A stretch of DNA of 20,882 nt, from positions 1 to 20,882 of the IMG/VR virus record IMGVR_UViG_3300025099_000186. One strand, 5' to 3'. The first letter of the stretch is position 1, and each line of letters opens with the position of its first letter. Under the pieces are notes generated by a model that did not search any database, had not been told where the DNA came from, and saw only the letters and a list, made by a program, of their open reading frames with translations. A program made the translations under genes and the position numbers. This stretch comes from a virus. Positions 620-19,328 of the stretch are shown here, one piece after another.

Positions 620-2331
620 TAAATTTTTAACTCAGTAACTATTATTTCACCATTCTTAGTTAGACGCCTTTCGAAGTCACGTGTAATCGTTGATTCAACA
701 GTTGCAAACAAACGAGGTACCGTCATATCATAAATATTGTTTAATTTATTGTTATCCTCTTCCTCTACTACATTCGATGAAATTAAATTTCCGATAAAAA
801 CATTTGTCTTAAAACCAGAATTCCCATTGAAGGTTTTTGTTATTTTGTTTATGGTGAACTTCTGTGCAATGATTTGGAATTTACTAAACATGCTAATGTC
901 TTTTTCCACATAGTTTCTAAATTCTTCTGCAGTAAATTCATTAAGAACATCAAGAACAAATAAGTTATCGAACAAACGAAGATTTGTCAAGTATGTTTGA
1001 ATCATCGAACCTGGCCTATAACCTGTATATTTCTTTTTGTTTAGGCGATTCTTTGCCATTTCCTCAAGCACATCTTTTTTTATGTTTCCGAATTGCACAT
1101 ACGAAAGTGTTTCACCACCTGTACCGAACTTGAACTCGGTTATTTTGTTGTTGTCTCCAATTATTTTAAAATGTGCGTTTACTTGTACATCTGATTCCTT
1201 TTGCCAACGTAAATCTCTATTGGTTACCAATCCTAGTCTTGTTTTATCAGAAGATGAAGCACTTGCTATATTAGGATCTATAGATTCCAATTTTTTCCTT
1301 ATTTTTTCCTTGGTAACAACTTCCTCTCCATTTTTCACAAATTGATTTTCGTATCTTAGGTCATAATTTTTTAAGATTAAATTACCAGCAAAAGAATCAG
1401 ACTCAAAAGATTGTGTCGTTAGAAACCCAGCAAATAAAACATTAAGAATGAATGTTTTGTCCTTTGCTTTTGTAAACTGTATATCTAGTGATGGACTTTT
1501 TTGTTCATTAGGAAACCCTTCTGGGTATTCAACAACAATCTCTTTTGTGAAACTTATAAAAGAAGTTATATTGAAATCAACCAAGTAGTTTTTATGCATG
1601 TGCTTTATTATTTCTAAAGCAGTTGACTGATCAGCTCGAAAGTCAATCATATCAAACTCTGTATTCACAGTTGAGTCAGATCTCATTGCATTTTTCTCTA
1701 GGGATTCTTCACTGATTTTTACAGCATCCAACAAATCAACATTTAATAAATCGGAGAATATAGGACTGGTTCCATATCTATCACCGATAACTTTATTATA
1801 GTCATGGCCTAATCTACGAACCATCTCTTGGAAGGAAATGTCATCAGAGTCAGAGTTTAATTGAATCTTCCTTGTTTTCATTTCTTCTTTGATGGCTTTC
1901 CCCGTTGCATTGTATTTCATCTTCCCTAAGTGGTACGCTGCGTTCTGGACAGTAATTGAGTTGTTGCCTTTCGAATCTATTTTGATCTCAGAAATAAACC
2001 CTATAAAAACAAAAGACTCTTCAATAGAATTACTTGTAAACTGATCAACGTTAATCCAGAAAATATCACCTAATTGAAGGAATGCTGAAATGTTGTGATT
2101 GTAATCACTTAAAGTATATGCCAAATGGTTTTTGTTCGCCAATGTAGGTGCATCTGTACTCGAAAGTTTTAACATACCACTAGCAAAACTAAGTTTCATC
2201 TCCTCATTTATATTGCCTCTGATTTGAGTGTGGTCCAAGCTTTTTAACCACCCTTCACCATCCTCAAACTCAGAAAGAGAATCCGATTTCTGATTGTAAA
2301 TACCAAATCTTGTGTTGTATGAAATTATCAT
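619..2331 (-). CDS. Baseplate hub / tail protein (gp27/gpD-like position)
   Basis: A 570-residue protein between the distal tail protein and the spike-like protein, the usual place for the hub that closes the tube and carries the spike. The N-terminal half is beta-rich (for example FWINVDQF and FVFIGFISEIKI), as in hub proteins. The middle includes YKEIVVEYPEGFP-like strand-rich text and a Lys-rich region at about 335-350. No enzymatic motif is seen. The start is the ATG at 2331, six bases after the previous stop. The role is inferred mainly from gene order and size; sequence resemblance alone is weak. Confidence 0.5.
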   Translation of the reverse strand: MIISYNTRFGIYNQKSDSLSEFEDGEGWLKSLDHTQIRGNINEEMKLSFASGMLKLSSTDAPTLANKNHLAYTLSDYNHNISAFLQLGDIFWINVDQFTSNSIEESFVFIGFISEIKIDSKGNNSITVQNAAYHLGKMKYNATGKAIKEEMKTRKIQLNSDSDDISFQEMVRRLGHDYNKVIGDRYGTSPIFSDLLNVDLLDAVKISEESLEKNAMRSDSTVNTEFDMIDFRADQSTALEIIKHMHKNYLVDFNITSFISFTKEIVVEYPEGFPNEQKSPSLDIQFTKAKDKTFILNVLFAGFLTTQSFESDSFAGNLILKNYDLRYENQFVKNGEEVVTKEKIRKKLESIDPNIASASSSDKTRLGLVTNRDLRWQKESDVQVNAHFKIIGDNNKITEFKFGTGGETLSYVQFGNIKKDVLEEMAKNRLNKKKYTGYRPGSMIQTYLTNLRLFDNLFVLDVLNEFTAEEFRNYVEKDISMFSKFQIIAQKFTINKITKTFNGNSGFKTNVFIGNLISSNVVEEEDNNKLNNIYDMTVPRLFATVESTITRDFERRLTKNGEIIVTELKI

Positions 2332-2337
2332 TCGTTT

Positions 2338-3078
2338 TTAAATTAAGGATTCAAACAAAGTATTTGTGTTTGTAACAAAAGACCTCTTTGCTTTTATAAT
2401 GAATGGTTGAACATTTTTCAGTTCTTTTGGTTCTGGTAACTCAAAACTTTCAACAACTAAACCATTAAGGTCAATTGCTGTTTTCTGGTTTTCTCCCCAA
2501 TAGCCGTTCGTCAAATCAAATTCCATTATGTCATAACACATTTCATTTAACCTTAAAACATCTGGCCTAGAAGCCCATGGTGTCTCACCGTCTTCATGAA
2601 TCATCGTGTTAACCAAAAGCCCCTCGATCGTAATATCCATTGAAGGGGATCCTAAATATTCCATTACTTCTGAATTTGCACCTAATGGTAATGTTTTAAT
2701 GAACTTGTTCTTCATTTTCACATCAATACTGCAAATAGGAACATTAAAAGATTTTAAATCATCTAAATCTAAAGGATTTTTATATTCGAACTGGCAATTG
2801 GATATAACCGTTTTGCTTCCAGCTGCAAGCTGAGAGAAAACAAATTCTTGCGAACCACCTAATTCAAAGTTTTCTATATTTGTTCTTGTTGGCCCAGTGA
2901 ATAGTGCTCCAGTACCAACAGACAAAGCTAAACCACGGAAAAAATTTGGGTTATTTAATGTTGCCCTAATGTTTCCTGCTGTTGCTTCAGTGTTTTCATA
3001 TACATACTTCAATTCGTTTCGAACTAAACTTTCTAACGCTGAAGCTGGACCTTCTAGTCCTTGAAAATAATTTGCCAT
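2338..3078 (-). CDS. Distal tail / baseplate protein, DUF6046-like
   Basis: A 246-residue protein directly downstream of the tape measure gene. The sequence is mostly beta-type with few charged clusters. The part from about residue 90 (TVISNCQFEYKNP) through SMDITIEGLL to VESFELPEP resembles a tail protein family common in Bacteroidetes phages, which I recall as DUF6046; this is from memory. Proteins at this place usually join the tail tube end to the hub, often with a LysM-like fold. A tail-tip role is likely from context. There is no signal peptide, membrane segment or catalytic motif. Confidence 0.5.
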   Translation of the reverse strand: MANYFQGLEGPASALESLVRNELKYVYENTEATAGNIRATLNNPNFFRGLALSVGTGALFTGPTRTNIENFELGGSQEFVFSQLAAGSKTVISNCQFEYKNPLDLDDLKSFNVPICSIDVKMKNKFIKTLPLGANSEVMEYLGSPSMDITIEGLLVNTMIHEDGETPWASRPDVLRLNEMCYDIMEFDLTNGYWGENQKTAIDLNGLVVESFELPEPKELKNVQPFIIKAKRSFVTNTNTLFESLI

Positions 3079-3082
3079 AATT

Positions 3083-4726
3083 TTACTTTTGAGCTATATC
3101 CAATGTTATTCTTGCCATTAATTCTTCAAGTTGAACACCTAAAGATTCAATATCATCACCAGAATTTATGTTTTGTGTATCTATTTTTTGTACCGAATCT
3201 ACGTTAACGGTAATGTTTTTGACTTGGCCTGAAACTCCTCGAACGCTATTTGCCATACTGTCAGCAATAGGGTTTTTATCATCAGTTTTGTCTTTGTCTG
3301 TCACCTTGCTTTTTACTGGAGCTAACGTTTTCTCCACTTTTATTGTAGTGTCGTCTATTTCAGAGCTTAATTTATCTCTTTTCCCCTCTAAATCTGAAAT
3401 TTGTTTTTGTAAATCTTGCTGTGATTTTAAATTAGAAGCCTTGTTTTTATTTACAGCCCTTTCTCTTTGTCGAAGCCTCAACGCTTCTTTTTTATCAAGA
3501 TCTTTAACATTTTTTTGAGCCATTATTCCTTGATGCTCCATTTCTAAGCTTATTCCTTTCTGCAAAACAAGCTCTTCTTCAACCAATTTGTTTTTTAATT
3601 CTATAAGTTTTAACTTTTTAGCTTCATTCTTTGCAGCTAACTCGGTAACATTTGGTATCTCTTTTAATGTTTTCAGAGCTTCTTTTTGAGATTTAGGTAG
3701 CTCATTTAATATTGGTGCTAAATCACCAAACTTCTTCCCTAATAATTGAACCCTGGCTGCAAACTCCTCGTTGGTAAAAACTCCTTCTTTTGATTTTTTT
3801 ATTAAGTGAGAAACTTGAGATCCCATATCTTTGTATCTAACTGATGTTCTAGCTATTAATTGCTCAGGGGTCATACCAGCCATCGCTTCCCCCATATCTG
3901 CCATTAAAGAAACAAAAGGAGCTAATTTTTTCCCCATAGAAGCTAACGAAGTGGTCCACACATTACTTAAACGTGTAATTGAATCAGTCATCTTTTTGGT
4001 GATTTCTCCACCAAACGTTTCTTCTAGTTGTTCAGCGAAAGGTTCTAAAAAGTCTTTTGCTAACAACTTTCCTTCCCCTACCATTTTTATGAATTCTTGC
4101 GTAGTCATATTGGCTGACTTTGCTGCTAAATCCATAGATCCAACACCCCTTTCAAAGAGTTGGTATAATTCTTCACTACTTACTTTCCCCTTATTTTGAA
4201 TTTGCGAAAGTGCCAAAAATGCACCTTTTGTTGTTTCAGCAGTTAATCCCAGCTTTTTTGTTGCCTTTGAAAACGTTTTAAATATTTTAAATCCTTTCAT
4301 CCCTTCTAGGCTAGTGTTTTTTATAGATGCACTCCATAACTTAAACCCTTCTTTAGCTGATACAGTGTCTAGACTTAATTCTGCTATTGTATTTTCTAGC
4401 TGTCTTAATTGAAATTGGCCTCTTGTTCCGCCAATAAATTTTATCGCAGTGTCAAGAGATTCGACTTTAGCAGCTGTTTGAATTGCTTGAGACCCTAAAG
4501 CAAGCATCGATGACCCTAAGCCAGCCAGTGCAGCTACACCAATCAAAGAAGATGTTTTTAGGTTGCTACCAACGTTTGAAACACCTTCTCCAGATTTCAA
4601 AGGCCCTACAGTTTTTGTACCTTTTATCTTTTTACTTGTTTTATCTAAAGCACGATTTATTTTTTCCAAGCTAGAAATTGCTTGCTTGCTATCAATAATG
4701 TAGCTATATTTGATATTTTTACCCAT
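3083..4726 (-). CDS. Tail tape measure protein
   Basis: A 547-residue tape measure protein, which sets tail length and occupies the tube lumen before DNA ejection. Residues about 165-240 match the conserved phage tape-measure region (an ALSQI segment, then KGKVSSEELYQLFERGV, then a LAAKSANMTTQEF stretch and a GKLLAKDF segment). Hydrophobic, Gly/Ala-rich segments occur near 60-80, as is usual for these proteins, and residues about 365-465 are highly charged with coiled-coil character. The gene overlaps the frameshifted chaperone reading frame by 8 nt. At about 1.5 angstrom per residue the length suggests a tail of roughly 80 nm, short for a myovirus; that estimate is inference. Confidence 0.88.
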   Translation of the reverse strand: MGKNIKYSYIIDSKQAISSLEKINRALDKTSKKIKGTKTVGPLKSGEGVSNVGSNLKTSSLIGVAALAGLGSSMLALGSQAIQTAAKVESLDTAIKFIGGTRGQFQLRQLENTIAELSLDTVSAKEGFKLWSASIKNTSLEGMKGFKIFKTFSKATKKLGLTAETTKGAFLALSQIQNKGKVSSEELYQLFERGVGSMDLAAKSANMTTQEFIKMVGEGKLLAKDFLEPFAEQLEETFGGEITKKMTDSITRLSNVWTTSLASMGKKLAPFVSLMADMGEAMAGMTPEQLIARTSVRYKDMGSQVSHLIKKSKEGVFTNEEFAARVQLLGKKFGDLAPILNELPKSQKEALKTLKEIPNVTELAAKNEAKKLKLIELKNKLVEEELVLQKGISLEMEHQGIMAQKNVKDLDKKEALRLRQRERAVNKNKASNLKSQQDLQKQISDLEGKRDKLSSEIDDTTIKVEKTLAPVKSKVTDKDKTDDKNPIADSMANSVRGVSGQVKNITVNVDSVQKIDTQNINSGDDIESLGVQLEELMARITLDIAQK

Positions 4727-4922
4727 TTTTCTTTATTTCGTTCTCAACGTTTATAGTAGCTTTTTTCTTGAGTTCCATTACATATTGATATTTTCCAAAT
4801 TCAACAGCTAAGTCTTCATCGCTAATTATCTTTGAATCACCAAAACTAAGACCCATTTTATATTGAAGGATTGCTTTTATTTGGTTTCTCCAATCACCCT
4901 CCGACAACTCATATTCTAAGAC
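4719..4922 (-). CDS. Tail assembly chaperone, frameshift (T-like) extension
   Basis: This reading frame has no ATG; its only nearby start is a TTG at 4907. It is open upstream, however, as far as the A_AAA_AAG heptamer that ends the preceding chaperone gene. A -1 slip there would continue translation with VLEYELSEGDW and add 67 residues, ending 8 nt inside the tape measure gene. This is the lambda gpG/gpGT arrangement, where the rare fusion recruits the tape measure protein to the tube. The downstream part is acidic and helical. I therefore treat it as an extension rather than an independent gene. Confidence 0.75.
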   Translation of the reverse strand, partial: VLEYELSEGDWRNQIKAILQYKMGLSFGDSKIISDEDLAVEFGKYQYVMELKKKATINVENEIKKNG

Positions 4923-5563
4923 TTTTTTTTTATAATTGATTCTTTAATATCAAACATAGTTTGCATAAAAAAAGCACCAGCAATAGGATATAATTCGTAA
5001 CCTTTTATCCCTAAGAAATTCGAACTCTCTTTGCAATTTAAGTCAGGTACAAAGCTTTCTGTAAAAACTTTAACAAACTCGGTAATTATAACATCAAATC
5101 CTTTGTCTAATGAAAACATGAGCTTTATTTTTTGTTCATTAGTAATAGAACTAACGAAACAAGAAACACCTTCAATAGAAATTTTATACTCAACCTTTCT
5201 TTTATTTCTCGGGTTAACCTTTTCCCTTTCGTCTTCAGTCATGTCTTCTAGTTCTATTACTGGAACTTCTGTCGCTATTGACGTGAAAAGTTGAAATGAA
5301 GGTATAATATTATTCTCTTCATCTATCACACATTTATCTCCACCAACAAACAACTCATTTAATAATTCAACTCCTAGTTTATACTTATCCTCTTTACTTA
5401 AATTATCGCAACTGGCAACATAAGCTATTCGCTTCCTTTCAGGTTTTTTAAAATAAGCCGTTTTATCACCTATTGAGATTTCATATTCATAGTCAGGTAA
5501 AACCGTTTTGTTTTTTGCTTCTTCTATTTTTTCTTCTTGTTCCTTTAATTTTAAATTTTTCAT
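4916..5563 (-). CDS. Tail assembly chaperone (gpG-like), frame 0
   Basis: A 215-residue protein between tail tube and tape measure, where tail assembly chaperones are encoded. It begins with a charged helix (KLKEQEEKIEEAKNK) and has alternating strands and helices without catalytic motifs. The last codons read AAA AAA AAG TCT TAG, a poly-A slippery stretch ending the frame, which fits programmed frameshifting into the next frame. It is longer than lambda gpG (140 residues), so an additional domain is possible. A terminator-like hairpin separates it from the tube gene, consistent with lower expression than tube or capsid. Confidence 0.72.
   Translation of the reverse strand: MKNLKLKEQEEKIEEAKNKTVLPDYEYEISIGDKTAYFKKPERKRIAYVASCDNLSKEDKYKLGVELLNELFVGGDKCVIDEENNIIPSFQLFTSIATEVPVIELEDMTEDEREKVNPRNKRKVEYKISIEGVSCFVSSITNEQKIKLMFSLDKGFDVIITEFVKVFTESFVPDLNCKESSNFLGIKGYELYPIAGAFFMQTMFDIKESIIKKKS
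4922..4928 (-). promoter_or_regulatory. Programmed -1 ribosomal frameshift site
   Basis: On the minus strand the heptamer A AAA AAG lies in the reading frame of the chaperone gene, one codon before its TAG stop. This is the classical efficient bacterial -1 slippery sequence. Slipping leads into the open frame that runs to 4719. The site, its phase and its place between tube and tape measure genes all agree. I did not find a strong downstream stem. Confidence 0.75.
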
Positions 5564-5611
5564 TTCTCTTTTTCTTTTATTCTAAATAGTAGTAAATTTA
5601 AGACACAAAAT

Positions 5612-5647
5612 AAAAAAGTCCCTGCAGAAATATATCCACAGAGACTT
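5612..5647 (-). terminator. Intrinsic terminator after tail tube gene
   Basis: Arms at 5616-5624 and 5639-5647 (AAGTCCCTG and CAGAGACTT on the plus strand) form a 9-bp stem. The single imperfect pair is G-U when read on the minus strand but C-A on the plus strand, so the hairpin suits the late transcript. A U-rich run follows on that strand. Confidence 0.7.
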
Positions 5648-5671
5648 AAAATCAAAAAAAAAGAAAGCTTT

Positions 5672-6136
5672 TTATCTCTCTCCCCAAGAACAATGAGAAA
5701 AAACAAATGGTATAACAACTTCGATTGAAGTATCACCTGCAGACATGTCTCGCATGTTTACAAGGAACTCTAAGTTTTCCAATGTATCTACTCCTGGAAG
5801 ACCTTGACCTTCAGTTGGAACATAGGCTATGATCATTGTAGATAAACCAGTAGAAGTTGGATCTCCATCAACTCGGCCAGAAGCTCGAGCTGCATCTTGC
5901 AATGCAATAACATCAGAAGCAAACAACGTAATTGATCCTTCGTATTCATAATTGGCATATCCCCTAGCGATTGGCTGACGAGAAGAACCTCCGTAAAGGT
6001 TTTCTTTTGTCGCAGTCTCCGAGTAAGATAAGTTTGTCCAACCTAAAATTGGCAAACCATTAAGCAACACTTGCGTGTTACTTGGAGAGAATTCAGCACC
6101 TTTAATAAATGGCGTTGATAATATATTTTTAGACAT
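5672..6136 (-). CDS. Tail tube protein
   Basis: A 154-residue protein immediately downstream of the sheath gene, the conserved sheath-tube order of contractile tails. Features typical of tube proteins are visible: a compact size, a loop segment (WTNLSYSETATKENLYGGSSRQPIA) and an alternating-hydrophobic region (YEYEGSITLF), then a C-terminal strand IEVVIPFVFSHCSW. The start at 6136 follows an A-rich leader without Shine-Dalgarno. A hairpin terminator lies just after the stop, which would keep its expression separate from the chaperones. The structural role rests on position plus general character; I see no enzyme motif. Confidence 0.75.
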   Translation of the reverse strand: MSKNILSTPFIKGAEFSPSNTQVLLNGLPILGWTNLSYSETATKENLYGGSSRQPIARGYANYEYEGSITLFASDVIALQDAARASGRVDGDPTSTGLSTMIIAYVPTEGQGLPGVDTLENLEFLVNMRDMSAGDTSIEVVIPFVFSHCSWGER

Positions 6137-6149
6137 AATTTTTTATTTT

Positions 6150-7298
6150 TTAAAGTTTAGTTGAAAAACCAAGTTTAACATCTATTTCCTTAGCAGTCCC
6201 AACAGGAATGATTTTTGCAACAACGTTTATTGTTGAAGTTTCTAAAACCTTTTGAGTTGGATCAATGCTCACAACAAAATCAGAAATCTCTTCTGCATTT
6301 TTCATAAATTGTAACTGCTTGCCTGCAAGTGATTCCAAATTTTTAACAAATCCGAAATTTAAATTTCCGTTAGAGTCAACCAACGCAGGAGCACAAACTT
6401 TCTTTAAAAGAGCAACACGTAAAGCTCTATAAGCCTTATCATATGTTCTGTTAAGATCGATTGTATTGAAATCTGATTGTGCATCATTTACTGCTGTGTA
6501 AGCGAAGTTAAAGTAACTACCACCTAAATCAACAAACTTTCGAACGAAGATGTAATGATAAGTATCTAACGTATCCAATAAAACACTAGACTTATCCTTC
6601 AATAAACTACCATCAATAAACCCTGGGTTAGAGTAACCGAAAGAAGCTAAATTAACCTCTTCTACGTATGCAATTGAAGTTGACACCTTAACAGATGAAA
6701 CAGCTCCTAAAACAGCACCAATGGACCCTACAAATGAAGCACCGTTGTCTCTCAACTCTTTTGCTTTTGACTCATCAGATAAATCTTCAGAAATAACAAA
6801 AGAAACTCTTGGAGCAGATTCTGCTTGAAGGGATGCTAATGATTCAACAGTTCCTGAAATATCTGCAGAATAAACAATTTGACCTGGAGCTTTTTCAGCT
6901 TCCAATTTATCTGCTTGGCCTTGGAGCAAATTTAATCGACCAGAAGAGTAATTGTCTTCAAGATCTAAAACTCCATATTGTCTTGGCTCACCTTCTGCAA
7001 AATCCTTCAATGTAACAACATCGTCAAATGTAGAAGTAGAAGCACCAACAATCTTCACATACAAAGATTCAACACTTCGGTTGTAATACTCTGCAACGTG
7101 GTATTTTATGACTTCCTCAGATTCAGTTGACCCTGTCAACAAATCCTTAGCATCTTGCTCAGAGAAAAACTTATAGTTTCCAGCGTAACCAGATAATGAT
7201 GCAGAATAAACAACTAATGCTGAAATCCCATCCTTAGATTCTGATTGTCTAAATAAACCTCCGTCTTGTCTGTTAATATTTACGTTTGCTAATGACAT
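6150..7298 (-). CDS. Contractile tail sheath protein
   Basis: A 382-residue sheath protein forming the contractile outer tail. The N-terminus (GISALVVYSASLSGYAG, with a FFSEQDAKDLL segment at about 45-55) and the C-terminal strand-rich end (STINVVAKIIPVGTAKEIDVKLGF) match the pattern of sheath proteins, where the terminal strands are exchanged between subunits. It resembles the DUF2586-type sheaths I recall from Bacteroidetes; that family name is from memory. It is shorter than T4 gp18 and similar to small sheaths of simple contractile systems. A terminator-like hairpin lies between the capsid gene and this gene, yet no clear host promoter is seen in front of it. Confidence 0.8.
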   Translation of the reverse strand: MSLANVNINRQDGGLFRQSESKDGISALVVYSASLSGYAGNYKFFSEQDAKDLLTGSTESEEVIKYHVAEYYNRSVESLYVKIVGASTSTFDDVVTLKDFAEGEPRQYGVLDLEDNYSSGRLNLLQGQADKLEAEKAPGQIVYSADISGTVESLASLQAESAPRVSFVISEDLSDESKAKELRDNGASFVGSIGAVLGAVSSVKVSTSIAYVEEVNLASFGYSNPGFIDGSLLKDKSSVLLDTLDTYHYIFVRKFVDLGGSYFNFAYTAVNDAQSDFNTIDLNRTYDKAYRALRVALLKKVCAPALVDSNGNLNFGFVKNLESLAGKQLQFMKNAEEISDFVVSIDPTQKVLETSTINVVAKIIPVGTAKEIDVKLGFSTKL

Positions 7299-7312
7299 AT
7301 TTTAATTTGATT

Positions 7313-7353: not shown

Positions 7354-7371
7354 ATTATTAATTTATTTATT

Positions 7372-8294: not shown

Positions 8295-8918
8295 TTATTT
8301 ATTTTCGAAAAATATCTTCGAATACAATTCTGGATTACTCTTGTTTAATTCAATCCTTTCTTCTGTACTCAAGTCAGACATTTTTAATTCTTTTTCTTTG
8401 CCAAAATCAACCTCTGGAGATTTTGCATTTACTGTTTTAGTTAACTCTTCAATTATCGATAAATCTAAGTTTAACCATGTATCAGTAACAGTTATATTCT
8501 TTGATTCTAAATAGTCGACTTTTTTCGCTTTTTCTTTTTCAGCGTCCATTTCTGCTATTTTATTCTCCAATTCTGTTACTTTACCAGATAATATATTGTT
8601 TGTTTCTGTTAATTCAACATTTAATGCTGTTAACTCAACAATGTTCTTTGCTTCAATTTCAGTCTTTGCTTCGACCTCTTCTAAAGTTTCTGTCTCTACT
8701 TTTGGAGTTTCTACTTCTACTTCCGCCTCCACTTCTTCTTTTTCTTTTTCTATTGAAGGAGTTTCCTCTTTAGTCTCTTTAGCAGTTTCTTCTACAGTTT
8801 CTTCTACAGTTTCTTCTACAGTTGCCTCAACGTTTTCTTCGTTGACAGTCTCTTTTTCTTTTTCGTCTACTGTTTCTACAACAGCTTCGTCAACGATTTC
8901 TTCGTTTTTAGTTTCCAT
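8295..8918 (-). CDS. Possible nested scaffold protein (internal start)
   Basis: The ATG at 8918-8916, in frame inside the protease gene, begins METKNEEIVDE exactly where the protease domain ends and the acidic scaffold begins. It is preceded by an A-rich stretch like other starts in this window. Translation from here would give 207 residues of scaffold alone. Such nested scaffolds are known in lambda-type head genes. There is no direct proof in the sequence that this start is used. Confidence 0.35.
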   Translation of the reverse strand: METKNEEIVDEAVVETVDEKEKETVNEENVEATVEETVEETVEETAKETKEETPSIEKEKEEVEAEVEVETPKVETETLEEVEAKTEIEAKNIVELTALNVELTETNNILSGKVTELENKIAEMDAEKEKAKKVDYLESKNITVTDTWLNLDLSIIEELTKTVNAKSPEVDFGKEKELKMSDLSTEERIELNKSNPELYSKIFFENK

Positions 8919-10683: not shown

Positions 10684-10688
10684 ATCTT

Positions 10689-11240
10689 TTAATAGAATTT
10701 TATTTTGTAAGTTACATAAGCAAATCTATACTTGTCGACCAAAGCTTTTAATGCATTGATGTTGATTACACTAGCCAAAGAATTAGGAATGTTTATGATG
10801 AAGTTTGTTGTTGAACTCACTTCATTCTTTGTAAACACATAAGGTTTATCTCCTCCAAAAGCAGCAGGGTTTTCACCTCTCTGATATATCGAGTTGTCAT
10901 CAGTACCAGTATCCTCACCTCTATTGAAGGCTATCAGTGTATTAATCTCTAAGAGTTGATTTGTTATGTAAATCTCATCACCGTTGTTATTAAATAGTAC
11001 ATTTAAAAGCTTTTCTAGTTTGATTGTGCTACCATCAGCACTTGTTAAAAATAAATACTCACACCTCTCTTCTAAAAACTTATTGTACATTGTTTCCAAT
11101 TCCTTAAAAACAACACCAATGAAAGCTAGTTGCTTAATCTTTTTATATCTCGTTGGCCACAAATCTAATAAATAAGCACCCCAATTGAAGGGATATCTTA
11201 AATTAGACCTGTTGCTTTTAGTATCACAAACAAATGCCAT
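10689..11240 (-). CDS. Baseplate protein at the gpI/gp48 position
   Basis: A 183-residue protein that overlaps the end of the baseplate J-like gene by 1 nt (TAATG) and is followed by the tail fibre. In P2- and Mu-type phages this slot holds the protein connecting wedge and fibre (gpI or gp48). The sequence is N-terminally helical (WPTRYKKIKQLAFIGVVFKELETMYNKFLEERCEYLFL) and then polar. I do not recognise a family signature, so the call depends on order and size. Confidence 0.5.
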   Translation of the reverse strand: MAFVCDTKSNRSNLRYPFNWGAYLLDLWPTRYKKIKQLAFIGVVFKELETMYNKFLEERCEYLFLTSADGSTIKLEKLLNVLFNNNGDEIYITNQLLEINTLIAFNRGEDTGTDDNSIYQRGENPAAFGGDKPYVFTKNEVSSTTNFIINIPNSLASVININALKALVDKYRFAYVTYKIKFY

Positions 11241-12070: not shown

Positions 12071-12102
12071 TTTATTCTTTAACTTAAATATTAATTATTT
12101 TT

Positions 12103-12979: not shown

Positions 12980-13281
12980 TTGTTATGGTAACTTTTTAAC
13001 CAATTATAAATTTTTTGATAATTAAAAGCTTCAATAAACTCTTCGTCTTCTACACTTAGCAACATATTGACTTTTAAATTAAATATCAATTCTTGCTTTA
13101 CACAGAAATATTGAATGCTTTGCTCTAACAAAGGAATCATAGAGTAAACTAAATTGTCGAATGTTTTCTTGCCAAACTTAAGACCTGGCTTTGGAAAACG
13201 TTCATGAATAACATCAATGCAATCATCTACAATTTGATTATCAATCTGATTTCCAATTTTACGTTCTCTAAAACATCCCAT
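12976..13281 (-). CDS. Unknown small late protein
   Basis: A 101-residue protein starting MGCFRERKIGN and rich in helix-forming hydrophobic and charged residues (FDNLVYSMIPLLEQSIQYF). It overlaps the next gene as ATGA. It has three cysteines, none in a clear motif, and no membrane segment. The position just ahead of the terminator-like gene suggests a head-tail joining role, but I recognise no family. Confidence 0.6.
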   Translation of the reverse strand: MGCFRERKIGNQIDNQIVDDCIDVIHERFPKPGLKFGKKTFDNLVYSMIPLLEQSIQYFCVKQELIFNLKVNMLLSVEDEEFIEAFNYQKIYNWLKSYHNK

Positions 13282-13304
13282 AGCTCCTTAATTTAAATAG
13301 TCTC

Positions 13305-13670
13305 TTATTCCTCTTTGTCCTTGCTCGTGAAAACAATATTGAAATTACCTTCGTCATCACCAACTATTTTCATCCCTGCAACCTTATCTACACTCGTGTT
13401 ATTTAATTGCTGCATCTTCATACTCTTTTCATGACGATCAGCCGAAGACAGCTTTTTCCAATAATTCTTAAATGACTGAGATTTGTAGTTGCTATTTATT
13501 AGACCTTGTGTTATGTTCAGCGTTTCCATGAAGCTGTCTTCGAACTTCTTGCTTATGTCATCAAACAGCTGCTCTGCATTCGTGGCCCAGTTCGTTCCAG
13601 AGGGGTTTAATACTTTTCCCTTCTGAGCATTTTTTGGTTTTGGTTCTTTCTTTTTGTTTGTTTCCGCCAT
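13305..13670 (-). CDS. Unknown small late protein, basic N-terminus
   Basis: A 121-residue protein with a very basic, Pro/Asn/Lys-rich start (AETNKKKEPKPKNAQKGK) that looks disordered, then mostly helical text (QLFDDISKKFEDSFMETL, then a KNYWKKLSSADRHEKSMKM segment). The basic tail could contact DNA or an acidic partner. It lies between holin and head-tail genes in the late block. No family is recognised, and a small terminase-like or assembly role is only a guess. Confidence 0.6.
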   Translation of the reverse strand: MAETNKKKEPKPKNAQKGKVLNPSGTNWATNAEQLFDDISKKFEDSFMETLNITQGLINSNYKSQSFKNYWKKLSSADRHEKSMKMQQLNNTSVDKVAGMKIVGDDEGNFNIVFTSKDKEE

Positions 13671-13738
13671 ATAAACAGTGATTTTAGTTTAATTAGCTAT
13701 AAAATTACAGCTAACTTCTCATTTAAGATAAATAGTGC

Positions 13739-14176
13739 TTATTTTTGTTTCCACTTCTCCACAGTTCTACCACTAAAGTAACCACCTAGAGCAACCATGA
13801 ATGCATATTTAAATAAATCAATCCAAATATCTCTTACAACCCAATTATTTGCGTATGCATCGAGGAAGCAAAAGAAAATGATTGCACACAAGAGTGATAC
13901 CAACATCATTGGTCTAACGTTTTTTGCCAGGAATGAATCTATTTTAGAATCTATTTCCCACCTCTTCGTTATATTGGCCATCTCTTCAATATCGATTTCC
14001 AGCTCTTTTAAGGCTAGTTCTTTGTTTTCTGGAGTAATGTTATTGTCTCCTTTAATTAGTTCCTTGACGGTACTGAATGCACCACCAGTGAAGGCGTCAG
14101 CTGCTTTTTCTATTAGTGTTGAGTTGGCTACTTTAGATAGGATCGATCCTACCTTTGTGTCTTTAAATTTTTTCAT
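13739..14176 (-). CDS. Holin, 3TM/GTA-type
   Basis: A 145-residue membrane protein next to the endolysin. Residues about 1-60 are amphipathic and charged; a conserved-looking NVRPMMLVSLL segment leads into a hydrophobic helix at about 89-107, and a second follows at about 120-136 ending in GRTVEKWKQK. This short pattern of RPxx, hydrophobic helices and GRxxEK at the C-terminus is typical of the phage holin family I know as GTA_holin_3TM. It would permeabilise the inner membrane for lysis. The ATG lies inside one of the ATTGAAGG motifs. The start is 11 nt after the endolysin stop. Confidence 0.72.
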   Translation of the reverse strand: MKKFKDTKVGSILSKVANSTLIEKAADAFTGGAFSTVKELIKGDNNITPENKELALKELEIDIEEMANITKRWEIDSKIDSFLAKNVRPMMLVSLLCAIIFFCFLDAYANNWVVRDIWIDLFKYAFMVALGGYFSGRTVEKWKQK

Positions 14177-14186
14177 TGAAGGGATT

Positions 14187-14711
14187 TTATAATGTTTTTT
14201 CTTTTATTTGGAAGTGAGGATAATCTTTCCAAGAAACCCAATCACCTCCCCATTCAATTACCAAGTCGAATTCCATCCAAGCAATCTCTTGTATGTGGTA
14301 AGCAACTGCTTGTAATTTATGGACATCCCAGTTAGCTCTTCCGTTTTCATAAATGTAGATATCGAATGCGTTGCCTGATTGGTGGTAAGATTTATTTTTA
14401 TACCCATCGCATTTTGAAGCACCTTTCTTAAATAGTATGAATTGGTCTGCTGCAGATCGATATCCTCCACTCTGGGGTATACCGAAGTCATAGGGAGAAC
14501 TAACTATTGCTTTTTGTAGTATTTGTATGAGAATCGGTTTAACTCCTTCTAATCGATTTAAACTTCTATCTGATAATTTGTACATAGGTGTTTCTTTTAA
14601 ATATATTTTTTTATTGAAGGGATGTTTTAATGTTGGGTATGGATCTATTGGCTTAATATTTCTCCAATTAATATCCATAAATGCTTTTTGTATTTCTGTG
14701 GATGCTGTCAT
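14187..14711 (-). CDS. M15-family endolysin (L-Ala-D-Glu peptidase-like)
   Basis: A 174-residue peptidoglycan peptidase of the M15/VanY type. The zinc ligands and catalytic residues are visible: His110 and Asp117 in SYHQSGNAFDI, Glu153 in VIEWGGDW, and His166 in YPHFQI. GGYRSAADQ (82-90) is the conserved substrate-side segment. No signal peptide is present, so release depends on the adjacent holin. The N-terminal 45 residues are less typical and carry an ATTGAAGG motif on the opposite strand. It is the first gene of the leftward block, next to the control region. Confidence 0.85.
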   Translation of the reverse strand: MTASTEIQKAFMDINWRNIKPIDPYPTLKHPFNKKIYLKETPMYKLSDRSLNRLEGVKPILIQILQKAIVSSPYDFGIPQSGGYRSAADQFILFKKGASKCDGYKNKSYHQSGNAFDIYIYENGRANWDVHKLQAVAYHIQEIAWMEFDLVIEWGGDWVSWKDYPHFQIKEKTL

Positions 14712-14946
14712 AACTTGCTGCTGATTAATGTTTTGTATAAATAGCTTAAGTATATGTGTTTATCCTATAGGGTTAATTTAGTTATATGCCTGTTTAATTT
14801 CAATCTTTTTTATTGAAGGGGATTGTTGGTGTTGGGTGTTTGTTTTTATTTATGCAGATCGCTTCGAAATGACAATAGCTGTCTTTGATTATTAAATGCG
14901 GAACTTTGACAAAAGGTTTTCTTTCTTTTTCTTATTTTCTTTGGTT

Positions 14947-15225
14947 TGGGTGCAATGAGCTGGGATTCTCTTCATCTCTCTTATACATCATAATGAAGTA
15001 TATAAGGTAAGTAGATTGGATATTGGTAGTATTTAATTAGAAGTAATATAAAGATGTATTTAAATAAATAATGATTGATCAATGGAAATTAAGTTAGATA
15101 TTAATGATTGATTTTTATGGTGGGGGGAAAAGGGCAAGAAATTATTTGGTTAAACAGTAATTTTGTGGGAATGGGTGCAATGGGCTGAGGTTTTCTCTTT
15201 TTGGTTTATACAAGATAATGAAAGA
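14947..15225. repeat. Pair of ~54-bp imperfect direct repeats
   Basis: Copy one (14947-15000) and copy two (15172-15225) both begin TGGGTGCAATG, continue with GCTG and a pyrimidine-rich tract, then reach TTATACA and ATAATGAA at the same spacing. They are 225 bp apart. Both could be promoters or operators controlling the divergent blocks. I cannot assign a direction with confidence. Confidence 0.65.
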
Positions 15226-15319
15226 AGTGAAGAGGTGGAAAGTAAATTGAGGTGCTTATTAATTAAGTAAAAAGAAGAAATAAGAAAAAAAATTAAGCAG
15301 ATGTACTTGGAAATTAACA

Positions 15320-15367
15320 GGTGGTATCATTCCATATATAAAACTCAATGCAACGTGTGATACCGCC
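15320..15367. repeat. Inverted repeat with GATACC cores
   Basis: GGTGGTATCA (15320-15329) is complementary to TGATACCGCC (15358-15367) with one mismatch. The left arm continues TTCCATATA and so is an inverted copy of the iteron unit. It stands about 120 bp upstream of the array and may be an operator or half-site pair for the same protein. Confidence 0.6.
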
Positions 15368-15482
15368 TTCAGTTTCATTTAAACAGGGTTCTTTTTGTTT
15401 TTGTTTTTAAGCAACACTAACCAAAATAAGAGAAACCTTCAATAAAAATTTATTGCAAACGCATATTGTTTATTTGATTAAT

Positions 15483-15617
15483 GATACCAGTTAATGATAC
15501 CAGTTAATGATACCAGTTAATGATACCACGTATATGGAATGATACCAGTTAATGATACCACGTATATGGAATGATACCAGTTAATGATACCACGTATATG
15601 GAATGATACCAGTTAAT
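15483..15617. repeat. Iteron-like array, 9 GATACCA units
   Basis: GATACCA starts at 15483, 15496, 15509, 15522, 15541, 15554, 15573, 15586 and 15605, giving steps of 13, 13, 13, 19, 13, 19, 13 and 19. Two unit types alternate: GATACCAGTTAAT (13 bp) and GATACCACGTATATGGAAT (19 bp). Three exact 32-bp composites occur (15509, 15541, 15573), close to three helical turns. The array stands upstream of a PriCT/HTH protein gene, so a replication origin or operator array is likely. It has no unique spacers and is not a CRISPR array. Confidence 0.88.
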
Positions 15618-15803
15618 AAAAAACATTTAAAACAAACCTTCAATAAAAAACGTTTAATTAAATAAGGGAAATCTTCAATTAATTGTACTATTCCAAGAAC
15701 TTGTTGTGTTTTTCTAATTAATTTGTATTTAGGAAAAGTTATTTCTTGTTTTTGCTTTTTTTTATATATATATTAATGTAAGCAATCAAACAAAAGGTTT
15801 GGT

Positions 15804-15880
15804 CGAGCATCCTGGGGAAGTAATTAGCCCCAGGTCCTTGTGCTCGTTAAATAATCAAGGGAGCCACATAAAACAAGGAT
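15804..15880 (+). promoter_or_regulatory. Structured 5' leader of the putative initiator gene
   Basis: CGAGCA (15804-15809) pairs with TGCTCG (15841-15846) and inside it CCTGGGG (15811-15817) pairs with CCCCAGG (15828-15834). The remaining loop TCCTTG (15835-15840) is perfectly complementary to CAAGGA (15874-15879), which contains a Shine-Dalgarno-like AAGGA 5 nt before the ATG. A pseudoknot hiding the ribosome site is possible. I do not recognise a known RNA family. Confidence 0.6.
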
Positions 15881-15884
15881 AAAA

Positions 15885-16910
15885 ATGAAAAAGAAAAAAA
15901 ACAAAATAGTTTTAAACGAACAACAAGAAACAACCCCTTCAATTGAGTCATCCGACATATTTGAAATAGAAGAATTTAAAGGCGAAGAGTTGCTAAACAC
16001 TTTAGATAAAGAGCACTCAAACAAAACAAGGAGAATTTCCGACTTAGACACATTTAAATTCGAAGGTGATTTTCACCGATTCGAAACAAAGAAAGAATTT
16101 GTATTTGCAGTTTTTTACACAGGGCAAATAATGAAAGACGAATCTAGATCTAAAGCTTTATGGATTCTTGGCATAAACGGACTCTATTTAAACAACCACT
16201 GGGATTTAAGTGCTTTAACTAATGTTTTATCCATGGAGAATGAATGGCATTGCGAACCACCGTTACCAGAGGATAAAATAAAAACTTTAGCTGAAGAAGC
16301 GTATGAAGTAAAAATAAAAGGCGAATTGGAAAGCAAAATAATTAAAACAAAACGTAGATTCATATTTAAAAAAGGAATGACAATGGAAGAAAAAAGACAG
16401 ATTATTGGAAAAGACACAGGTCCATTAGTAGCTAATGCAAGGAAAGAAAATACTAAAAACACTTTAGAGGAAACTATTAACAACTGGCCGAAAGAAGAAG
16501 GATTGATTAGCCAAAGTAAAATTGCTAATAAAAGCGGTTTAGGTATTGCAACCGTAAAAAGACATTGGGCAAGTGTCAAAGATTTAGTGCAAGCAACAAA
16601 TAACACCTTCAATAAAAAAAAGATAAATGAAGACACTAAGTTTTTCAACGGGCCTCATACAGGGAGTACAGCTATAGAAGTAGTGAAAGTAGACCCAGAA
16701 TACATAAAAGGCCTGGAAAATAAAGGGAAAGAGGTCTCTCAGTCATTAAAAGATGTTATTGAAGGTGGTGTTAAAGAAAAGGTATATAATTTTGATTATA
16801 GTTCAGAAGGAAACCCTATAACAAAAAGGACTGCAAAAGAGTCAATTGAGTATTATGGGAGAAAAAATATAACAATTTGTCCATTTGAGGTTTGGGAAAG
16901 CCTTTCTTAA
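15885..16910 (+). CDS. Putative replication initiator/regulator: PriCT-like plus HTH
   Basis: A 341-residue protein, the first gene of the rightward block. Residues about 88-142 (from SRSKALWILGINGLYL to NEWHCEPPLPEDKIKTLAEEAYE) follow the PriCT pattern found after primase domains and in replication proteins: helices, then N-x-PPL and an acidic helix. Residues about 205-235 (ISQSKIANKSGLGIATVKRHW) look like a helix-turn-helix. No primase catalytic domain or helicase Walker motifs are visible. The iteron array lies 270 bp upstream, which supports DNA-binding at that array. The C-terminal 100 residues are unassigned. A transcriptional regulator is the alternative. Confidence 0.6.
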   Translation: MKKKKNKIVLNEQQETTPSIESSDIFEIEEFKGEELLNTLDKEHSNKTRRISDLDTFKFEGDFHRFETKKEFVFAVFYTGQIMKDESRSKALWILGINGLYLNNHWDLSALTNVLSMENEWHCEPPLPEDKIKTLAEEAYEVKIKGELESKIIKTKRRFIFKKGMTMEEKRQIIGKDTGPLVANARKENTKNTLEETINNWPKEEGLISQSKIANKSGLGIATVKRHWASVKDLVQATNNTFNKKKINEDTKFFNGPHTGSTAIEVVKVDPEYIKGLENKGKEVSQSLKDVIEGGVKEKVYNFDYSSEGNPITKRTAKESIEYYGRKNITICPFEVWESLS

Positions 16911-16921
16911 ATAAAAGATAT

Positions 16922-17221
16922 ATGAAAAAAGAAAACAGAAGAAGGATAAATGGGCTAATGGCTGGCCCTATATCTGCTAACATTAGAAAAGAAAAAAGTA
17001 TATCCTTAATTCGTAATGAAATCATTAATTGGGATAGCATTGATGGTCTTATTAGGCAAATAAAGCTTGCCAATAAAACTTCTTTGTCAGTTAAAACAAT
17101 AAAAAGGCACTGGCATTTCTTTAAATCGACTGTAGCAGAAATTAACTTGTCAATTAAAAAAGAATTAGGCCCTGATTATTTGGCATGGATAAATAAAATC
17201 GACAAAGGAAATTTGCAATAA
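16922..17221 (+). CDS. HTH protein, paralogue of the preceding C-terminal region
   Basis: A 99-residue protein starting at the ATG at 16922 (an in-frame TTG at 16892 would overlap the previous gene and is less likely). It aligns with residues about 170-240 of the preceding protein: GPISANIRKEK against GPLVANARKEN, EIINW against ETINNW, and IKLANKTSLSVKTIKRHW against the HTH segment. It therefore carries the DNA-binding part but not the PriCT-like part. It may compete with or modulate its larger neighbour at the same sites. An intrinsic terminator follows within 20 nt of its stop. Confidence 0.75.
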   Translation: MKKENRRRINGLMAGPISANIRKEKSISLIRNEIINWDSIDGLIRQIKLANKTSLSVKTIKRHWHFFKSTVAEINLSIKKELGPDYLAWINKIDKGNLQ

Positions 17222-17237
17222 GCGAATCACGAATTCC

Positions 17238-17277
17238 CTGCACGGTAACGCTAAGTTTGTTACCATGCAGTTTTTTT
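17238..17277 (+). terminator. Intrinsic terminator after the HTH paralogue
   Basis: Arms CTGCACGGTAAC (17238-17249) and GTTACCATGCAG (17259-17270) form a 12-bp stem with one mismatch, followed by seven Ts. It ends the two-gene initiator unit. Confidence 0.85.
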
Positions 17278-17324
17278 GATACACACTAAATAAAAGTAGG
17301 GTTTATTTGAATTCTGCTTTTTTT

Positions 17325-17338
17325 TTACTATTTATAAT
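17325..17338 (+). promoter_or_regulatory. Promoter-like element TTACTATTTATAA (class 2)
   Basis: TTACTATTTATAA is shared with 20283-20295. Here it ends 20 nt before the ATG of the lipoprotein candidate. The TATAA part could act as -10. The element is AT-rich, so chance similarity cannot be excluded. Confidence 0.4.
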
Positions 17339-17357
17339 AAACAAACAAATAAGAATT

Positions 17358-17516
17358 ATGAAATTATTAATCATCGCCTTAGCTTGGATCTTTTTTTGTA
17401 TGACATCATTTCCGAGCTGCAAACCAAGGCACCAACAAGAAAGTAAACATGTCCAGATTCAAGCAAAAGTTGAACAATTAGTCAAAATAAGAACAACCTT
17501 CAATAAAAACAAATAA
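17358..17516 (+). CDS. Small lipoprotein candidate
   Basis: A 52-residue protein from the ATG at 17358, preceded by AAGAATT. It starts with a lysine, then a hydrophobic stretch LLIIALAWIFFCMTSF and a Cys at residue 19 in SFPSCK, an imperfect lipobox, followed by a short polar tail. This fits an envelope lipoprotein such as a superinfection exclusion or spanin-like peptide, but none can be named. The stop directly abuts the next ATG. A CCTTCAAT motif overlaps the last codons. A longer in-frame start (TTG at 17307) overlaps the promoter-like site and is unlikely. Confidence 0.6.
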   Translation: MKLLIIALAWIFFCMTSFPSCKPRHQQESKHVQIQAKVEQLVKIRTTFNKNK

Positions 17517-17936
17517 ATGAAAAATTTTAAAGAAAGGAGAGAAATAAGTACAGGAATAACAAACTGCTTAGTAAAATTACCTAAGAAGAAAATGTTTAAC
17601 CAAAAAAAAGTTTGGTTTGAAAGTAAGGAATCAGGCTTTGATTACACTTGGGAGATGAAGTTAAAGTGTGAAACCGAAATGGAAGCAGAACAATTAATTT
17701 CACAAATGATAAAAGAGGACGAATTTAAAATTATAATTTCGCTAGAAGTGAGAATTGAAACTCGTCATAAACATTTGTTTTTCCCAAACAAATGGGAAGA
17801 GGATAAACCAGAATTGTGTAAAATAGAGGTAGCTGCTGTAAATGGTCATACTAAAATTGAGAGAAAAGGTAAAACGGTGAAGTTGAAATATAAAAGTAAT
17901 GGTGGTTATGGTGAAACAAAAAAGAGATGGAAGTAA
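17517..17936 (+). CDS. Unknown early protein
   Basis: A 139-residue protein whose ATG abuts the stop of the lipoprotein candidate (TAAATG). It is basic at both ends and carries strand-forming segments (VWFESKESGFDYTWEMKLKCE, then FKIIISLEVRIETR). The C-terminus is very Lys/Gly-rich (KGKTVKLKYKSNGGYGETKKRWK). Four or so aromatic and acidic clusters suggest a compact folded protein. No family or catalytic motif is recognised; by location it is an early accessory protein. Confidence 0.6.
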   Translation: MKNFKERREISTGITNCLVKLPKKKMFNQKKVWFESKESGFDYTWEMKLKCETEMEAEQLISQMIKEDEFKIIISLEVRIETRHKHLFFPNKWEEDKPELCKIEVAAVNGHTKIERKGKTVKLKYKSNGGYGETKKRWK

Positions 17937-18115
17937 TCTACACAGAAGAATGGATAACTGCTAATGCAGATCGGATTAACTGGGGTACCATCAACCTCCA
18001 CAAGATTTCTTTATTCAGCATAAAATTTAAATTAGCCTTCAGTAGATACATTAAACAGAGACAAGAAGAAATAGATAGGATTTATGCGAAGATAATTCGA
18101 GGTTTTGCTGCCTAA
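17927..18115 (+). CDS. Unknown small early protein
   Basis: A 62-residue protein that overlaps the preceding gene by 10 nt, suggesting coupled translation. It begins EVIYTEEWITANADRINW, followed by a basic amphipathic part (FKLAFSRYIKQRQEEIDRIYAK). There is no membrane segment or Cys motif. I do not recognise it. Confidence 0.5.
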   Translation: MEVIYTEEWITANADRINWGTINLHKISLFSIKFKLAFSRYIKQRQEEIDRIYAKIIRGFAA

Positions 18116-18135
18116 ATGAAACTTTATTGAAGAAA

Positions 18136-18156
18136 TTGCGTTTAATAGGTTATAAC
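18136..18156 (+). promoter_or_regulatory. Repeated promoter-like element, copy 1
   Basis: TTGCGTTTAAT followed 12 nt after its CG by TATAAC (18151). The same layout recurs at 18260 and 20462. The ATG follows the TATAAC start by 22 nt, leaving a very short leader. Confidence 0.55.
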
Positions 18157-18172
18157 TAAAAACAAATCTATT

Positions 18173-18238
18173 ATGACACTATTATTTATTGCAGCACTAT
18201 TTATCCAATTAAGAAAAATAAAAAAGAAAACAGCGTAA
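18173..18238 (+). CDS. 21-residue membrane microprotein
   Basis: ATG at 18173 opens a 21-codon frame: a hydrophobic helix (LLFIAALFI) and then a basic tail (RKIKKKTA), the shape of a single-pass micropeptide. It is supported by the repeated promoter-like element at the same distance from its start as in the next gene and by an AAATCTATT leader resembling those of neighbouring genes. It is too short for family assignment; the start context is the main evidence. Confidence 0.4.
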   Translation: MTLLFIAALFIQLRKIKKKTA

Positions 18239-18259
18239 AGTGAAACCTTTTTTACCCAA

Positions 18260-18280
18260 TTACGTTTAATATAATATAAC
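18260..18280 (+). promoter_or_regulatory. Repeated promoter-like element, copy 2
   Basis: TTACGTTTAAT with TATAAC at 18275, again 12 nt after the CG and 22 nt before the next ATG (18297). Confidence 0.55.
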
Positions 18281-18296
18281 TAAAAAATCAACTATT

Positions 18297-18602
18297 ATGG
18301 AAATTTTAAAACACAAAGAAAATTACATTAAAGTAAAATTAGCAAACGGAAATATTGTTGTTATCGATAACACAAAAGATGTAGAAGGAGGGGAGCTGGG
18401 TCACATTGCTCTTTATGCATCTGAACATGAAGATGACACTCACACTCCAACTGCTTATATAAGCGAAGATGTAAAACATGGGTTTAAATCTGAAGTCTTC
18501 CCTGAAGAACATCGTATGAGTATGTTTCCAGGGGATCAAGTTAACTTAACCACAGAAGAATATTTTGCTAAAGTTAAAGAAGCAACAAAAACCCGATCGT
18601 AG
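18297..18602 (+). CDS. Unknown early protein
   Basis: A 101-residue protein with its own promoter-like element. The N-terminus forms strands (YIKVKLANGNIVVIDN), the middle is acidic and His-rich (ASEHEDDTHTPTAY), and a C-terminal helix ends the protein. No signal peptide or membrane segment is present. A strong terminator stem begins within its last codons, so it is probably a single-gene transcript. No family recognised. Confidence 0.6.
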   Translation: MEILKHKENYIKVKLANGNIVVIDNTKDVEGGELGHIALYASEHEDDTHTPTAYISEDVKHGFKSEVFPEEHRMSMFPGDQVNLTTEEYFAKVKEATKTRS

Positions 18603-18622
18603 CGAATGATCGGGTTTTTTTG
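18591..18622 (+). terminator. Intrinsic terminator overlapping a stop codon
   Basis: ACCCGATC (18591-18598) pairs with GATCGGGT (18608-18615), followed by a T-run. The left arm is coding sequence and the TAG stop is in the loop. Confidence 0.88.
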
Positions 18623-18651
18623 TGGCTATAACTATAAACGTCCTAAGTTGC

Positions 18652-18700
18652 CCTAATGAAAGGGCCAAAAATATTTTTAAAAAGGGCCAGAAACATTAGG
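18652..18700. repeat. Inverted repeat CCTAATG / CATTAGG
   Basis: CCTAATG (18652-18658) and CATTAGG (18694-18700) flank two copies of AGGGCC and a palindromic AAAAATATTTTT. It sits immediately upstream of a host-type promoter and may be an operator or looped regulatory site. Confidence 0.5.
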
Positions 18701-18719
18701 CGATCCCAAATTAATTCCG

Positions 18720-18727
18720 TAACTTTG
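18720..18727 (+). promoter_or_regulatory. Bacteroidetes-type -7 promoter element
   Basis: TAACTTTG matches the TAnnTTTG consensus of the Bacteroidetes primary sigma factor exactly. Transcription would start near 18734, just before a structured leader. A convincing upstream TTG element at the right distance is not clear. Confidence 0.6.
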
Positions 18728-18734
18728 TAATAAG

Positions 18735-18866
18735 AAACAGAGGGAGGCACTTCAAACATATTATGGTATAATTTTCATAACAAACGTCTCCCTCAATCTT
18801 GCCTTTTCTGGATAACTACCAGACAGGTCTTTAAAATAAATATAAAACAAATCTAAATCTATTATC
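18735..18866 (+). promoter_or_regulatory. Structured ~130-nt 5' leader
   Basis: GAGGGAGGC (18740-18748) pairs with GTCTCCCTC (18786-18794), 9 bp with one G-U; inside it TTATG (18761) pairs with CATAA (18776). TCTGG (18807-18811) and CCAGA (18819-18823) form a second hairpin. The leader lies between the promoter and the ATG at 18867 and has no ORF of note. No known riboswitch was recognised. Confidence 0.55.
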
Positions 18867-19328
18867 ATGGAAGTTAAAATTCACAACAACAACATTCTGG
18901 TCCTTTTGCCAAACGAAGAAGTAGACCAAAAACAATGGGCATTTAGAGCAATGCCAGCACAATACAAGAACGCCACTGGTTGGGACTGTGATTGGGTTCA
19001 GAAAGCCAAAGTTAGCTCATTTCCGAGCACTTCAACACCAAATCATACAATCATATCAATTCCGCTTAAAGGTGACGGATTCTATCGCTTTGGGATTGGA
19101 GAGCAGAAGCAGTGGGTAAAGGTTGTTGGTTCAACTTTAACCTTAATTCAAGAGTTTCAAATTGAAGGGATATTTAAAGAAACACGATTAGAGAAAATTG
19201 TTATTGAAGGGGGTTCTGGGTTTTGTACAACAATTGTTGGAACCACCGAAGAACTAAACGAAAAAATAAAGGCATTGTTCGAATTGCATCGACAATCATT
19301 GATCACTGAGGGGTTACTAAAAAAATGA
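18867..19328 (+). CDS. Unknown early protein under a structured leader
   Basis: A 153-residue protein starting EVKIHNNNILVLLP. It contains a beta-rich middle (HTIISIPLKGDGFYRFGIGEQKQWVKVVG) and a C-terminal helix (EELNEKIKALFELHRQS). Two of the ATTGAAGG motifs fall in its coding sequence. The stop overlaps the HNH gene start (ATGA), so the two are probably co-transcribed and coupled. The long structured leader suggests regulation at RNA level. I recognise no family. Confidence 0.6.
   Translation: MEVKIHNNNILVLLPNEEVDQKQWAFRAMPAQYKNATGWDCDWVQKAKVSSFPSTSTPNHTIISIPLKGDGFYRFGIGEQKQWVKVVGSTLTLIQEFQIEGIFKETRLEKIVIEGGSGFCTTIVGTTEELNEKIKALFELHRQSLITEGLLKK

Follow-up and report, generated by a model that had tools for sequence, protein, structure and literature searches.

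The window analyzed here comprises all 20882 bases of IMG/VR record IMGVR_UViG_3300025099_000186, which is probably a fragment. Its predicted genes mark it as a 20.9-kb fragment of a Winoviridae-like Bacteroidota phage: a DUF2586 sheath, TMP_3 tape measure, ClpP-type protease, capsid, holin, and M15 peptidase characterize it as a Winoviridae-type myovirus, and the sheath (PF10758, 2e-32) occurs together with the Mu-like structural module of that family. A leftward operon (71-14711) carries the structural and lysis genes, rightward early genes occupy 15885-20682, and a divergent non-coding region separates the two; GC skew switches sign at 14-15 kb.

The best named relatives by sheath identity are the Flavobacterium phages lotta8/pippi8 (34% identity over 99% by tblastn), followed by FPSV-S1 (30%). 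Exact peptides of the capsid, the sheath, and a 341-amino-acid early protein identify no close relative in IMG/VR, nor do the sheath peptides in genome contigs. Genome loci with related sheaths all belong to Bacteroidota, many of them within long chromosomal contigs, which makes it probable that some relatives are temperate. Because the named relatives have genomes of about 35 kb, some 14 kb of the phage genome, perhaps including a regulator, appears to be missing. No integrase or repressor-like gene is apparent in the 20.9-kb fragment; a temperate life and a repressor are therefore only assumed below.

Table 1. Copies of the 8-mer and associated features in the window
Feature	Position	Strand	Flank or orientation	Location or basis
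ATTGAAGG copy	826..833	+	strong downstream flank	in ORF 619-2331(-)
ATTGAAGG copy	2073..2080	+	weak flank	in ORF 619-2331(-)
ATTGAAGG copy	2639..2646	+		in ORF 2338-3078(-)
ATTGAAGG copy	4862..4869	+	strong flank	in ORF 4719-4907(-)
ATTGAAGG copy	5169..5176	-	sense orientation, strong flank	in ORF 4916-5563(-)
ATTGAAGG copy	6596..6603	-	sense orientation, weak flank	in sheath ORF 6150-7298(-)
ATTGAAGG copy	7004..7011	-	sense, weak flank; could be chance	in sheath ORF 6150-7298(-)
ATTGAAGG copy	8752..8759	+	strong flank	in ClpP-type protease ORF 8295-9470(-)
ATTGAAGG copy	10923..10930	+	weak flank	in ORF 10689-11240(-)
ATTGAAGG copy	11184..11191	+		in ORF 10689-11240(-)
ATTGAAGG copy	14175..14182	+	strong flank	spans start codon of holin ORF 13739-14176(-)
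ATTGAAGG copy	14613..14620	+	strongest flank	in M15 peptidase ORF 14187-14711(-)
ATTGAAGG copy	14812..14819	+	strong flank	divergent intergenic region
ATTGAAGG copy	15436..15443	-	strong flank	divergent intergenic region
ATTGAAGG copy	15637..15644	-	strong flank	divergent intergenic region, right after tandem array
ATTGAAGG copy	15936..15943	-	strong downstream flank	in ORF 15885-16910(+)
ATTGAAGG copy	16606..16613	-	strong flank	in ORF 15885-16910(+)
ATTGAAGG copy	16758..16765	+	sense, weak flank; could be chance	in ORF 15885-16910(+)
ATTGAAGG copy	17497..17504	-	strong flank	end of ORF 17307-17516, 13 bp before start of ORF 17517-17936
ATTGAAGG copy	19161..19168	+	sense, weak flank; could be chance	in ORF 18867-19328(+)
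ATTGAAGG copy	19203..19210	+	sense, fairly strong flank	in ORF 18867-19328(+)
Best example of extended element, TTTTTTATTGAAGGGATGTTTTAATGTTGG	14607..14636	+		flank alignment and scoring
Divergent non-coding region	14712..15884	.		between leftward structural/lysis operon and rightward early genes

An 8-mer maintained independently of the encoded proteins

A word search of the window finds the 8-mer ATTGAAGG/CCTTCAAT in 21 exact copies, 13 as ATTGAAGG and 8 as CCTTCAAT, or about 1 per kb, distributed over structural, lysis, and early genes as well as the divergent region (Table 1). These are precisely the positions listed in the initial annotation, with no further ones. The strong over-representation claimed there is borne out: a trinucleotide model predicts 1.09 copies (z = 19), and 100 dinucleotide shuffles yield 1.27 +/- 0.97, with a maximum of 4. 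The annotation had proposed a count of all 8-mers against a Markov model as a check, and named as refuting a k-mer count in which the word is no more frequent than other AT-rich 8-mers after correction for codon and dinucleotide bias. Counted in this way the word still ranks first, with the highest z of any 8-mer in the window (19.0, about 19 times chance), and the remaining high scorers either overlap this word or stem from a tandem array at 15478-15617.

Seventeen of the 21 copies lie wholly within predicted ORFs, one falls on a start codon, and three are intergenic. Genic copies occur in all three frames and in both orientations (encoding TFNG, FLQL, PSMD, IEGV, LLKD, PFNK, and others), which agrees with the initial description of copies in intergenic DNA and in different coding frames. 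Synonymous-codon shuffling of all 28 ORFs, which preserves every protein and the codon usage, gives 2.3 copies in genes (1.8 sense and 0.5 antisense; maximum of 7 in 1000 trials) against the 17 observed (6 sense and 11 antisense). Protein sequence is therefore not the cause, as the annotation had argued, and the word is kept independently of the encoded protein. When all words are subjected to the same test, ATTGAAGG is the strongest (z of 9.2), and the next unrelated word reaches 4.6.

Chance or a compositional artifact of codon usage or AT-richness accounts for a part of the set at best. ATT GAA GG in frame is a plausible I-E-G codon run, and synonymous shuffling predicts that roughly two of the six sense copies would arise by chance, but for the set as a whole the Markov and shuffle tests reject an artifact, leaving this explanation with a negligible probability. 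The poorly flanked copies at 7004, 16758, and 19161 may be the chance ones. The core is strictly held, since words with one mismatch are mostly found at the expected frequency, barring an excess of ATTGAAGA (8 versus 2.3 expected) and ACTGAAGG (3 versus 0.5).

Aligned with one another, the copies reveal a longer, asymmetric DNA element of about 30 bp, in which the 8-mer forms the invariant core and T-rich sequence flanks it on either side. The consensus is roughly (Y)TTTT-ATTGAAGG-KKTTTYTTAWTKTT. T prevails at -5 to -1, +10 to +15, and +18 to +21, and a loosely conserved second box, TTAWTKTT, lies at about +14 to +21; core and flanks together have no dyad symmetry. The T-runs noted ahead of the word are real, with 3.7 of 6 upstream bases being T compared with 2.1 at nearby positions on the same strand, and T is likewise elevated at +10 to +23 (7.5 of 14 versus 5.0); neither value is reached in any of 5000 resamplings. 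The GG or GAT reported to follow the word holds only in part, G being directly next in 8 of 21 copies. In a leave-one-out model of the flanks, the sites have a mean score of +4.8, compared with -10.0 +/- 6.8 for positions chosen at random, and 13 of the 21 rank within the top 1%.

Two further explanations were weighed. Some copies are alike over 30 bp (those at 14164 and 14602 share 88% over 33 nucleotides), as would be expected of a dispersed mini-repeat that spread recently and has no function. Its core, however, is the same in all 21 copies and decayed versions are few, the flanks vary, and most copies sit inside genes that remain unbroken, so that we see only a slim chance of this being the answer. 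An RNA-level element, in which an RNA-binding protein or a small RNA recognizes CCUUCAAU in an A-rich setting within phage messages, would agree with the presence of CCTTCAAT on the transcribed-sense strand, in A-rich context, at 15 of 21 copies. We consider it very improbable: the flanks are present on sense and antisense copies alike, with equal upstream T-richness; of eight single-strand folds, six do not exceed shuffled sequences in stability; the other two, weak stem-loops (z of about -3.3), differ in geometry and are not shared; and the Rfam search of the window, like the tRNA search, gives no match.

Two conventional transcription signals were also considered and set aside. The word is not associated with the Bacteroidota promoter motif TTG-N17-23-TANNTTTG, and no terminators were found.

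Occurrence in related phages and Bacteroidota genomes

In scans that may have left out the closest kin of the window, the word belongs to this phage and not to its relatives or to the Bacteroidota genomes sampled. The comparison with related phages suggested in the initial annotation reveals no enrichment: about 180 related phage and prophage loci together contain 197 copies where 145 are expected, with no single locus approaching the level of the window. Ten genomes with related prophages carry the word at background, and in an even sample of 395 genomes from across the phylum the highest frequency of TATTGAAGG is about 37 per Mb, compared with 620 per Mb in the window (13 in 20.9 kb). A stringent form of the element, which would catch only about one site in seven, has three matches in the window and none in any other IMG/VR contig. 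A two-site probe matched 36 contigs, but the word-rich ones are considered unrelated because their short, one-strand spacings, mostly multiples of 3, look like repeats inside protein genes. One of the 395 genomes encodes a distant relative of the 341-amino-acid protein (15885-16910), and the surrounding 40 kb contains only 4 copies of the word.

Another candidate is a Chi-like hotspot of the host, a word at which RecBCD/AddAB stops degrading phage DNA and recombines it. Like E. coli Chi (GCTGGTGG), the word is a strict, asymmetric, mismatch-intolerant octamer, over-represented in both genic and intergenic phage DNA regardless of the genes; conserved T-rich flanks, however, are not to our knowledge a feature of Chi. 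Phages without their own recombinases do over-represent Chi, but at observed-to-expected ratios of about 2 to 5 (median of 2.3-4.8, 0.2 per kb, in lambdoid phages) (PMC3784561), far below the ratio of about 19 and the density of 1 per kb seen here. Neither the 395 genomes nor the 10 with related prophages, a sample outside which the actual host may lie, show enrichment, and related phages lack it as well. The missing host signal in the sampled genomes, together with a density and ratio above those reported for phages, makes a Chi-like role distinctly unlikely.

In Haemophilus uptake signal sequences, T/A-rich segments spaced by one turn of the helix follow a short, rigid core. The element resembles them in its rigid core and in the helical-turn spacing of its T-rich segments, but such a signal would need to be enriched in the host chromosome, and the word is not enriched in any sampled genome.

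Strong dispersed words of other kinds are present in some of the related loci. Among the roughly 180, only L110, which has visible dispersed repeats, exceeds the window in the strength of its top word. At 838-13372 this locus contains 20 copies of CAATGACG, all on one strand, and 12 of GTTCAGAC, mostly on the opposite strand, many of these repeats having longer shared contexts. In FPSV-S1, GGCTGTTA/TAACAGCC occurs 15 times against 0.93 expected, scattered over both strands; as a like element it was rejected, as its copies share no flanks and codon-context effects are general in that phage. Another locus, L016, carries TTTGTGCC nine times, several copies forming inverted pairs of the TTTGTGCC..TTAGCACAAA type, and this set looks like a group of operators.

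Placement, orientation, and the divergent region

The intervals between sites are as if random (gap coefficient of variation of 0.90, random mean of 0.93). The strongest elements nevertheless crowd near the divergent region: three copies lie inside it and six more within about 1.6 kb, making nine at 14.1-17.5 kb, of which eight point toward the region. At 15 of 21 sites the transcribed-sense strand carries CCTTCAAT; the count is 14 of 21 when the divergence point is set at 14711 (p = 0.19). Among the 13 sites with strong flanks, a subset chosen after seeing the data, it is 11. Since 14 of 21 is not significant and the 13-site subset is post hoc, an orientation rule is suggestive only.

This distribution could also suit a phage DNA signal that acts outside transcription, whether in DNA organization, in partition, in KOPS-like packaging orientation, or in replication as primase or replisome loading sites. 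Random-looking spacing and free crossing of genes would be natural for such a signal, and eight of the nine at 14.1-17.5 kb converge on the divergent region, where tandem repeats and the skew change are located. Orientation is mixed outside 14.1-17.5 kb, however, the fragment shows no gene for segregation or partition, and no phage system known to us employs a word of this sort at 1 per kb; we regard this alternative as unlikely.

The divergent region has repeats of its own. The tandem array at 15478-15617 consists of 13-bp (TTAATGATACCAG) and 32-bp units, with a single TGATACCA also at 15322, and is likely an iteron-type replication origin; the product of the adjoining gene is distantly like a 523-amino-acid VirE-N/primase-like protein. 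A probe built on the array matched one contig, which is unrelated. Two imperfect 65-nucleotide direct repeats (71%), 225 bp apart, lie at 14933-15222.

A candidate protein-binding site and its likeness to stoperators

A rigid core with a soft flank about one helical turn away suggests the imprint of a DNA-binding protein. Of the three readings offered in the initial annotation, a scattered protein-binding site fits best, because the element is asymmetric, has an invariant core with flanks at helical-turn distance, occurs in genic and intergenic DNA alike, and is specific to this phage; the Chi-like reading is weakened and the RNA element unsupported. On these sequence features, we put the chance that the element is recognized by a sequence-specific DNA-binding protein from the phage, perhaps in an operator- or stoperator-like network, at just under even.

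A phage-encoded protein of this kind would contact the core through one major groove and the T-rich box one turn of the helix further downstream. Because strong copies cluster around the divergent control region and orientation leans one way, we infer a regulatory role. With less certainty, the sites may act mainly on transcription: copies near the divergent region would serve as operators, and copies on either arm, most of which have CCTTCAAT on the coding strand, as roadblocks. Such roadblocks could silence the genome from many points simultaneously, as the mycobacteriophage L5 repressor does at stoperators.

The search for a matching phage protein proposed in the initial annotation was negative within the fragment, which lacks about 14 kb: neither Pfam nor PHROGs recognizes a cognate repressor (HTH plus Stoperator-domain) or other binding protein there. 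The gene probably lies in the absent portion. A stand-alone protein of 109 amino acids (16892-17221) is 36% identical to residues 157-262, the HTH-like part, of the neighboring 341-amino-acid protein, and the two are possibly a DNA-binding pair. AlphaFold models of the two HTH-like early proteins (pLDDT of 29 and 59) are too poor to use.

Cluster A mycobacteriophages such as L5 and TipsytheTRex carry 20-30 asymmetric operators or stoperators with a nearly invariant core, scattered over the genome and mostly in one orientation to transcription; the motif is specific to a phage or small group, and each two-part site can be occupied by a repressor monomer that has two DNA-binding domains (PMC6550527, PMC9283540). 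The sites described here are likewise asymmetric, without a dyad, and similar in number, with 21 copies in a 20.9-kb fragment. They differ in having an 8-bp core with T-rich flanks rather than a 13-bp consensus, in a density about twice as high, and in the host phylum. L5-type stoperators are found in promoters and short intergenic spaces, whereas 17 of 21 sites here are wholly inside ORFs; because intergenic placement is a defining feature and most of these sites lack it, we do not call them stoperators.

If the sites do bind a phage repressor, they would constitute a distributed silencing system outside actinobacterial phages, with its sites written into coding DNA, and the word itself provides a ready probe for the binding protein. 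Scattered words of this strength in a single phage are rare. More tentatively, and with the balance tilting against it, a Bacteroidota phage may have a genome-wide network of about 30-bp sites of its own, mostly double coding, for a phage-encoded silencer or organizer; the stoperator-like principle would then have evolved independently of actinobacterial phages and would not be confined to intergenic DNA.

One further repeat in the window is of a different type. At 19487-19863, a 45-bp in-frame tandem repeat rich in lysine and glutamate lies within the HNH/endonuclease-VII-like ORF 19325-20254.
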